From Sulfitobacter mediterraneus (GTDB lineage Bacteria > Pseudomonadota > Alphaproteobacteria > Rhodobacterales > Rhodobacteraceae): a stretch of DNA of 64,000 nt. The notes below the pieces were generated by a model. That model saw only the letters and a program-made list of their open reading frames with translations, was not told where the DNA came from and did not search any database. The stretch covers positions 124,001 to 188,000 of the forward strand of contig NZ_QBKU01000002.1 of NCBI RefSeq assembly GCF_003054325.1. The letters are read 5' to 3'. The position numbers and the translations under genes are program-made. Of the stretch, positions 14,011 to 15,573 are shown one piece after another (the first letter of the stretch is position 1; the number at the start of each line of letters is the position of its first letter).

Positions 14011-15108
14011 TCAGGCCCCGGAACGCACGGATCTAGGCATTGGACCTGCGGCAAAAGTTGCGCGGGAAAAACATTCAAAAAACGTTTCGAAATAAGGCGT
14101 TGCGCCCTCTGCATCTGCCAAAATGACCTGTGCCTCTGGCGCCAGATAGGCCAGGACATGCCCGCGCATCCTTTGCCAATCACTTTGCCGCGCGGCGCCC
14201 ATATCATGCAGGCTTTCTGACATGCCATGCAGTGGGCGAACCGCAAGATCCGGCAGCGAAAACCGCAACTGCCCTGCGGGGATCTGTGCCAATTCAGGCT
14301 GCGCCCCCATCAAACCCAAGGCCCATCTGGTGACCAAAAACAGATGGTATCCATCGCTCAGCGAAGCATTTTGATCCGCAAAGAGATCAATCTGGCGATA
14401 ACTCTCGGTGATGGCGCGGGTCCAGACCTCCGGCACTAGTGCCTTGACCAAGGTTAACGCGGCACAGACCTCGGCCAAGAGATCCATATCCTGATCGAGA
14501 TGCGCCAGTATGCCCGCGTAATGCAGCCCCAAAAGCGCGTCATCTGACACTACCGCTTTGCGGCGGCCATAATCAGACAGGTAAAATACAACATGGGTCA
14601 GCTCATAAGCGGCCTTTTTGTTCGGCAATGCAAAGGTGGCGGGACGGGACATAAAGCGATGTAAACGCGCCCCCAATTGGCCCGCATCAACTGGCGCACC
14701 AACACCACGCCGGCAAAGCAACCGCCGGGCCTCGGCACGTTGCAAATCCGACATCTCGGCTTGGGCAGATTTATGTTGGGCCACCCAATCGCACAGGGCT
14801 TGGCCGCGCCGCCCGTTGATGCCAAGATCCTCTAGATCTAGACAGATCGACAGCAAGAACCGGTAATACTGAGGAAAGAAGTGCAGCCGATCTTCGATGC
14901 GGTCGTAGAACTCCTGCAACGGGTCAAGCGCACCGGATTGCAGGCTCGCCCCCGAGGAGGCCAAAATGCCAAGCAATTCAGCAACTTCCTTGAGCCAATA
15001 GACGTCATTTGCGCCATGTCGCTCCTCCACAATCGCGGTGATCAGGGCTGACAGACGGGCCTCCTGATTTTGCTGCATCAGGGGTTGAAAGGTGACAATA
15101 TTTGACAT
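14011..15108 (-). CDS. Unrecognised 365-aa protein linked to the repeat-peptide gene
   Basis: 365-aa protein starting MSNIVTFQPLMQQNQEARLS, with an AGGAG ribosome site seven bases upstream of the ATG at 15108. It has no signal peptide or membrane helix and looks almost wholly alpha-helical. Aromatic and acidic clusters such as DRLHFFPQYYRFLLSICLD and LEDLGINGRRGQ (about 70-105) are the most distinctive parts. Five scattered cysteines form no CxxC pair, and I see no radical-SAM, YcaO, protease, kinase or ATP-grasp motif. It lies 67 bp after the repeat-peptide gene on the same strand, across a strong hairpin, which suggests a shared function. I do not recognise a family. Confidence 0.8.
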   Translation of the reverse strand: MSNIVTFQPLMQQNQEARLSALITAIVEERHGANDVYWLKEVAELLGILASSGASLQSGALDPLQEFYDRIEDRLHFFPQYYRFLLSICLDLEDLGINGRRGQALCDWVAQHKSAQAEMSDLQRAEARRLLCRRGVGAPVDAGQLGARLHRFMSRPATFALPNKKAAYELTHVVFYLSDYGRRKAVVSDDALLGLHYAGILAHLDQDMDLLAEVCAALTLVKALVPEVWTRAITESYRQIDLFADQNASLSDGYHLFLVTRWALGLMGAQPELAQIPAGQLRFSLPDLAVRPLHGMSESLHDMGAARQSDWQRMRGHVLAYLAPEAQVILADAEGATPYFETFFECFSRATFAAGPMPRSVRSGA

Positions 15109-15138
15109 GCGAACGCTCCTGCTGGGGGATGAAAGCCA

Positions 15139-15164
15139 AGGGCCCGCAATTGGATGCGGGCCCT
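15139..15164 (-). terminator. Hairpin between repeat-peptide gene and 365-aa gene (leaky terminator or mRNA stabiliser)
   Basis: AGGGCCCGCA (15139-15148) pairs perfectly with TGCGGGCCCT (15155-15164) around a six-base loop. In the direction of transcription it is followed by TGGCTTTCATC rather than a T-run, so full termination is unlikely. Placed 11 bases past the peptide stop and 30 bases before the next ATG, it could give more peptide mRNA than partner mRNA. Confidence 0.7.
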
Positions 15165-15175
15165 GACAGGACGGA

Positions 15176-15397
15176 TCAGCAACTGGTGGTAAAAAGGTCC
15201 AGCCCGTGACCCGATGTTGCCAGCCGCCCCGATGGCGCAGAGCCGGTGGTGAACAGATCAAGACCGCCGCCGGTCAACAGATCCGCAGCACCAGGCGCAG
15301 ACCCTGTGGTGAACAGTTCAAGGCCGTGACCGCTGTCCATTTGTGCGGTTGAGGATGGGCGGGCTGGCGTTGGGATCGCAAGTGCAAGTGATGTCAT
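15176..15397 (-). CDS. 73-aa peptide with three 20-residue repeats of GxGL(D/E)LFTT
   Basis: Starts MTSLALAIPTPARPSST, then three repeats at an exact 20-residue period: GHGLELFTTGSAP from 23, GGGLDLFTTGSAP from 43 and GHGLDLFTTSC from 63, the last ending in a terminal Cys73. A strong AGGAG (15406-15410) lies eight bases before the ATG. The copies use different codons (for LF: CTG TTC, CTG TTC, CTT TTT; for the Asp/Glu: GAA, GAT, GAC), so the amino acids, not the DNA, are being kept. No signal peptide is evident. It resembles a multi-core precursor peptide or a repetitive assembly protein; the function is unknown. The 365-aa gene follows. Confidence 0.8.
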   Translation of the reverse strand: MTSLALAIPTPARPSSTAQMDSGHGLELFTTGSAPGAADLLTGGGLDLFTTGSAPSGRLATSGHGLDLFTTSC

Positions 15398-15432
15398 GGG
15401 ACAATCTCCTTTTTGGGATGAATGAAAGTTTT

Positions 15433-15442
15433 GATTGCAATC
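15433..15442. promoter_or_regulatory. GATTGCAATC palindrome, candidate operator
   Basis: A perfect 10-bp palindrome 35 bases upstream of the repeat-peptide start, in the likely promoter or untranslated leader. Its size and position fit a dimeric repressor or activator site, but no regulator can be named. Confidence 0.35.
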
Positions 15443-15476
15443 TCAATAAGCAATGCTCGTTTAGGTTGTTTTGCCA

Positions 15477-15490
15477 ATGATCCAAATCAA
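15477..15490 (-). promoter_or_regulatory. FNR/CRP-type box upstream of the repeat-peptide gene
   Basis: Read towards the peptide gene the site is TTGAT-TTGG-ATCAT, nine of ten matches to the FNR/FnrL consensus TTGAT-N4-ATCAA. It centres about 86 bases before the peptide start codon. FnrL of Rhodobacterales activates genes at low oxygen; other CRP/FNR-family factors use similar half sites. Confidence 0.5.
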
Positions 15491-15510: not shown

Positions 15511-15573
15511 TTATCCACATTAAGAACGCTTCACAAATTTTTCTGCGTGGCAGATTACTGGATTTTGTCCACA
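15511..15573 (+). promoter_or_regulatory. DnaA-box pair in the spacer before xth
   Basis: TTATCCACA (15511-15519) is a perfect DnaA box and TTGTCCACA (15565-15573) differs at one base, both on the plus strand in an AT-rich spacer. The 340-bp spacer 15398-15737 also holds the FNR-type box and palindrome of the divergent peptide gene; I see no further gene in it. Confidence 0.4.

Follow-up and report, generated by a model that had tools for sequence, protein, structure and literature searches.

Several classes of ribosomally synthesized and post-translationally modified peptides (RiPPs), such as graspetides and plant or fungal multicore RiPPs, are made from multi-core precursors, in which a short leader is followed by repeated cores and a dedicated enzyme gene adjoins. 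A dedicated protease and an exporter near the RiPP genes are common, but not universal. Epimerases that act on ribosomal peptides have been described in more than one form. PMC10373908 presents PoyD and YydG as radical SAM RiPP epimerases that form D-residues in a ribosomal peptide (several in the case of PoyD), PMC10406935 presents MslH as a lasso peptide epimerase, and the title of a 2026 paper (Shi et al., ACS Catal; reference list of PMC13352647) links an epimerase of the DUF6895 family to lasso peptide modification. Here we analyze a 64,000-nucleotide stretch of the Sulfitobacter mediterraneus genome (contig NZ_QBKU01000002.1, positions 124,001 to 188,000; hereafter the window), in which a gene for a 73-residue repeat peptide directly precedes a gene for a 365-residue protein of the Pfam family DUF6902. 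The two genes form one cassette and very probably encode a precursor and its dedicated enzyme. Our best reading is a RiPP-like cassette with a multi-core precursor and a toroid-fold enzyme that is most likely a peptide epimerase, a reading that we regard as evenly balanced between right and wrong. In window coordinates, the genes and repeats are as follows.

15176 to 15397, minus strand: putative precursor peptide gene, 73 aa, three repeats (open reading frame (ORF) sequence, homologues, ratio of nonsynonymous to synonymous substitution rates (dN/dS))
15299 to 15331, minus strand: repeat 1, residues 23-33, end FTTGS (sequence, family repeat profile)
15239 to 15271, minus strand: repeat 2, residues 43-53, end FTTGS (sequence, family repeat profile)
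15179 to 15211, minus strand: repeat 3, residues 63-73, FTTSC at the C-terminus (sequence, family repeat profile)
14011 to 15108, minus strand: DUF6902 protein, 365 aa from ATG, candidate peptide-modifying enzyme (Pfam, predicted model, conserved residues)

Co-inheritance of the two genes was followed at three levels of relatedness. Among 80 named loci, fetched by DUF6902 similarity and representing the best 80 of 289 loci, a repeat peptide is encoded upstream of DUF6902 on the same strand in every case, with a gap of 38-123 nt in 79 loci and of 342 nt in L093 (contig ends truncate L072 and L127, and in L140 the frame stops after just two repeats). Within the genus, DUF6902 was found above the cut-off in 41 of 58 genomes searched, our own genome included, and the peptide accompanies it in all 41 (38 by search and 3 by inspection). 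A broader sample of the family, 198 genomes from 197 genera, contains DUF6902 in 55 genomes and the peptide, by search, in 47; all 47 fall within the 55, with the peptide match just upstream (tables compared by eye). Inspection revealed divergent repeat peptides in six more DUF6902 genomes (G207, G331, G361, G386, G402 and G461). With a contig-edge fragment (G426) set aside, 54 of the 55 genomes are testable, and both genes are present in 53 of them. The 143 family genomes without DUF6902 gave no peptide match by search, and were not inspected for divergent peptides. The association over the 198 genomes has a Fisher p of ~1e-47, relatedness ignored. Further peptide matches at a contig end near xth in G317 and G343 are taken to be the remainder of an array that the assembly broke in two. 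A weak match at G020:C10 (E 4.3e-4) does not adjoin DUF6902.

The single exception is G329. Its divergent DUF6902 gene (L182, 2331-3428) occupies the same site between xth and hesB with no visible repeat peptide, and V, Q, Q, L, R and T replace the residues Y168, H172, Y176, D209, E213 and H255, which are conserved elsewhere. The prediction made originally from the letters of the window had proposed a precursor with a dedicated partner, and named absence of the peptide from relatives that keep the 365-residue gene as a finding that would speak against it. Such absence was seen in this one genome only, where the enzyme has lost the conserved residues as well. The proposal itself is upheld, since the two genes co-occur, remain neighbours and are missing from the same genomes, and since the peptide frame shows purifying selection.

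The 73-residue peptide carries its repeats with an exact 20-residue period (G23, G43 and G63) and has Cys as its last residue, as originally described. Similar units number 542 in the 80 loci, 2-20 per homologous peptide, with the consensus G(94%)-[DE]-[AG]-[VT]-E-[ML]-F(96%)-[TS]-[ST]-[GS]-[S/L/M/C/V/A]. Of the 462 intervals between units, 404 measure 20 or 21 residues, and the chain ends exactly on a repeat in 77 of the 80 peptides. The Thr-Thr pair and the terminal Cys, to which the original prediction had drawn attention, hold for the window peptide but not for the family: Thr-Thr is not invariant, and units end in S, L, M, C, V or A. The last five residues of the units show an identity of 0.80 within a peptide and of 0.15 between peptides, a pattern as expected if cores are homogenised within each genome; 37 different five-residue core tags occur in the 80 loci. 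Purifying selection on the peptide frame, whose absence had also been named originally as a finding against the proposal, is evident in a dN/dS of 0.137 between the window and G022, the nearest homologue used, and of 0.045-0.26 in four other pairs. The repeat units together with these ratios place the peptide beyond chance. Peptide starts were picked by a script rule at 77 of the 80 loci (the start in L139, at least, looks wrong), 13 of the 80 peptides were located with looser criteria, L140 with a short frame, and the repeat regular expression mis-tagged some units of L079 and L082. In L051, L027, L028 and L140 the peptide frame is broken or ends after two repeats, and the DUF6902 gene alongside is full-length; these frames may reflect sequencing error or early decay.

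The partner, originally held to have no known motif and to be of a new type, belongs by its sequence to a known family, DUF6902, which is related to DUF6895. It matches Pfam PF21843 (DUF6902) with E 2.4e-130 and 435 bits (cut-off 27) over profile positions 1-351 of 351, and PF21836 (DUF6895) partially, with E 2.2e-22 and 80.2 bits (cut-off 23.8) over positions 20-235 of 289; an NCBIfam scan returned no match above cut-off. The nearest named DUF6902 homologue, from S. mediterraneus, is 76% identical. W38, Y168, H172, G181, D209 and E213 are invariant and common to DUF6902 and DUF6895 in a set of 16 proteins; ionisable residues are common to both families at ~20% identity. Among 86 aligned DUF6902 proteins, H172, Y176, D209, E213 and H255 are kept in 85 and Y168 in 84, a count that leaves out L103 and L134, whose frames end early. 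In these two loci the DUF6902 frames stop at 140 and 44 aa, respectively, and the adjoining repeat peptides end on a repeat.

The predicted model of DUF6902 is an all-helical alpha/alpha toroid with a predicted local distance difference test score of 92.3. That of DUF6895 has the same fold class and matches sugar 2-epimerases, a lanthipeptide synthetase and other toroids; the lanthipeptide synthetase match was obtained with the DUF6895 model only. A Foldseek search with the DUF6902 model gave no match at E 1e-3 or better, and no solved structure was related to DUF6902 by sequence below E 0.68. Pfam and NCBIfam scans detected no radical SAM domain in DUF6902.

DUF6895 genes elsewhere show a comparable arrangement. 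We read six DUF6895 loci outside the family and found a small ORF directly upstream in five (Rhizobium sp. CF122, G278, Kitasatospora, Pseudalkalibacillus and Streptomyces NBC_00857); in the sixth, Streptomyces fungicidicus, a single gene separates it from two tandem DUF6895 genes. The Rhizobium locus has two paralogous peptides with ends around GPWFV, and the upstream ORF of G278, from the same phylum, has 143 aa with two GxEL-GPW copies. A weak leader pattern, approximately SG[LI][IVL][DN], can be made out by eye. These sequences suggest that a small upstream precursor is general for the DUF6902/DUF6895 superfamily. The Rhizobium locus (L147, 1490-6576) also encodes an O-methyltransferase, a C39/C70-type peptidase and a second protein without a Pfam match. 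On S. fungicidicus plasmid p1 (L192, 5833-9688), the tandem genes are found with a 62-aa ORF and a beta-lactamase-like hydrolase.

We propose that the peptide would be a multi-core precursor in which a short N-terminal leader precedes tandem cores of ~20 residues, each carrying approximately G-x-x-[VTL]-x-[ML]-F-x-x-[GS]-x, and that DUF6902, the putative dedicated modifying enzyme with a predicted alpha/alpha toroid fold, most likely binds each repeat. The enzyme would act within the F-x-x-[GS]-x segment, epimerising one of its residues through acid/base chemistry at the alpha carbon, with the conserved Y168/H172/D209/E213/H255 set as the putative catalytic residues, and cleavage between the cores would come later. 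Three points favour epimerisation: DUF6895, the nearest family for which an activity is reported, is an epimerase according to the title cited above; the side chain of the last core residue varies at a fixed position, which suits alpha-carbon chemistry; and the conserved residues could act as acid/base pairs. Given a precursor and a dedicated enzyme, we put epimerisation at somewhat over one half. A short gene-encoded precursor co-inherited with an adjoining dedicated enzyme gene would place the pair in the RiPP class.

A multi-core RiPP would also result if DUF6902 carried out dehydration, ester or thioether formation, or hydroxylation, acting on S/T/C at core position +3 or on the near-invariant Phe. 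We consider this unlikely: Pfam matches link DUF6902 neither to LanC nor to any other known modifying enzyme, and the nearest family with a reported reaction is, by that title, an epimerase. Less probable still is a non-covalent partnership, with the repeat peptide acting as a structural or binding ligand for which DUF6902 would be the chaperone or receptor. Tandem repeats with homogenised tags would fit such a role and a high-confidence, all-helical predicted toroid could bind them, but a pure binder need not keep ionisable residues in common with DUF6895 at such low identity, nor lose them in the one protein without a peptide. A chance ORF beside an unrelated conserved gene, for which one could cite the lack of a Pfam or NCBIfam family in profile scans of the peptide and the only 6 matches at E 1e-6 in a protein-database search with one homologue (by a tool that requires shared words and similar length), is practically negligible in view of the low dN/dS, the repeat profile, and no peptide match without DUF6902 in the family sample.

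With an epimerising DUF6902 as the preferred reading, the locus can be set against the described systems. It resembles the DUF6895 family in its hidden Markov model match, common invariant residues, predicted fold class and upstream small ORF, and differs in having its own Pfam family, a multi-core precursor and one fixed core-genome site. Like MslH, DUF6902 would use acid/base chemistry to introduce a D-residue into a ribosomal peptide. No Pfam match links the two proteins, and DUF6902 models as an alpha/alpha toroid. MslH, in contrast, has a metallophosphatase fold. PoyD and YydG differ in being radical SAM enzymes. Graspetides and plant or fungal multicore RiPPs have the same layout, whereas here the enzyme family is different and the window shows neither a clear protease nor a clear peptide exporter next to the two genes. 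The leader peptidase Transglut_core3 (PF13471) is linked to lasso clusters; it had no match in our whole genome and matched in 2 of 14 control genomes (a lasso cyclase was not searched for).

The cassette has a fixed place in the core genome. At 70 of 71 loci tested it is preceded by the divergent gene xth, and hesB follows downstream at 70 of 71; the wider neighbourhood also has xth in 63/63 and an ArgRS-like gene in 61/63 loci (names by eye). DUF6902 is absent from 17 genus genomes, of which 16 were examined: hesB and xth adjoin in 15, 67-507 nt apart (429-507 nt in 4 of the 15), and in the sixteenth, G007, the contig ends at the site. G004 (64% complete), which also lacks DUF6902, is outside this count of examined sites. 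The fixed core-genome site argues for a housekeeping role. Plasmid carriage of DUF6902 was considered and found no match in PLSDB, and a defence system none in PADLOC. Window neighbours by Pfam are SPOR, ArgRS, HD phosphohydrolase, Fe-S assembly, Exo_endo_phos, HNH, carboxylesterase, HhH-GPD and MFS. These nine include no clear protease or peptide exporter beside the pair; the carboxylesterase has weak S9/S33 matches, and the MFS transporter is ~4 kb away. Of the 78 loci with enough downstream sequence, 36 (L073, L083 and L139 among them) have an EamA-like permease frame directly 3' of DUF6902 and on its strand; by gap size the count is 38 of 75. Pfam confirmed EamA in both frames scanned (2/2). 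This frame is absent after DUF6902 in the window.

Further features around the two genes are these.

15406 to 15410, minus strand: ribosome-binding site AGGAG, upstream of the peptide gene (sequence)
15139 to 15164, minus strand: perfect hairpin, 10-bp stem, between the peptide and DUF6902 genes (sequence, folding)
15511 to 15519, minus strand: DnaA-box-like TGTGGATAA (sequence, exact)
15565 to 15573, minus strand: second box, one mismatch, TGTGGACAA (sequence)

The ribosome site, the 67-bp spacer (15109-15175) with its hairpin and the same-strand partner gene were all correctly described originally. AGGA, GGAG or GAGG precedes the chosen peptide ATG in 59 of 77 homologues. The 101-nt stretch around the hairpin has a folding z of -2.87. 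Across loci the hairpin is only partly conserved: perfect stems of at least 8 bp occur in 14 of 80 spacers (0.9 expected) and of at least 10 bp in 7 of 80 (0.0 expected), and spacer folding energy is weak (median z -0.39; z <= -2 in 8/80). As to a conserved attenuator at the hairpin, the weak folding energy speaks against it and the excess of perfect stems for it.

The sequence TGTGGATAA, which we take to be a DnaA-box sequence, is found in perfect form within 300 nt upstream of the cassette in 50 of 78 regions (shuffle mean 0.1), and the other 28 have no exact copy. There are 76 boxes in 23 kb of upstream sequence versus 7 in 1.46 Mb elsewhere in the same loci. Two exact boxes are present in 25 of 77 loci, 76 nt apart in 16 of the 25; the orientation is the same in 71/74, and none of the 15 empty sites has a copy. 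Our genome contains 18 copies, compared with 13 of a reversed control pattern, so TGTGGATAA is not rare genome-wide. The distance of the first box has a standard deviation of 33 nt to the peptide start versus 884 nt to xth, the latter inflated by outliers, with medians alike. The tight distance to the peptide start, the uniform orientation and the box-free empty sites make it unlikely that the box belongs to xth. The cassette may be under the control of DnaA. The link to low oxygen made in the original prediction was not borne out: the window has an imperfect FNR-like site, TTGATTTGGATCAT (15477-15490), and FNR control was rejected, TTGATN4ATCAA being absent from all 78 upstream regions and TTGAN6TCAA present in 2 of them (shuffle mean 0.8 for the latter). 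In a bolder reading, to which we give little credence, the locus would be a core-genome, DnaA-linked RiPP cassette of many roseobacters, making D-residue peptides by a toroid epimerase, with expression tied to replication and a housekeeping or cell-cycle role rather than one in warfare.

No description of the pair was found in the open-access PubMed Central literature, subscription papers and preprints being outside this search. A RiPP-like precursor with its enzyme is a known kind of system; the enzyme family, the multi-core format and the upstream element are new in not having been described together in the searchable literature. Judging from these sequences, the cassette probably makes a family of modified peptides in marine roseobacters. 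A widespread marine bacterial family would gain a small, readily expressed peptide system with many natural variants, and its conserved TGTGGATAA boxes offer a direct way to test whether a RiPP is linked to replication control. If true, the proposed mechanism would suggest a function for DUF6902 and would extend DUF6895-type chemistry to multi-core substrates.
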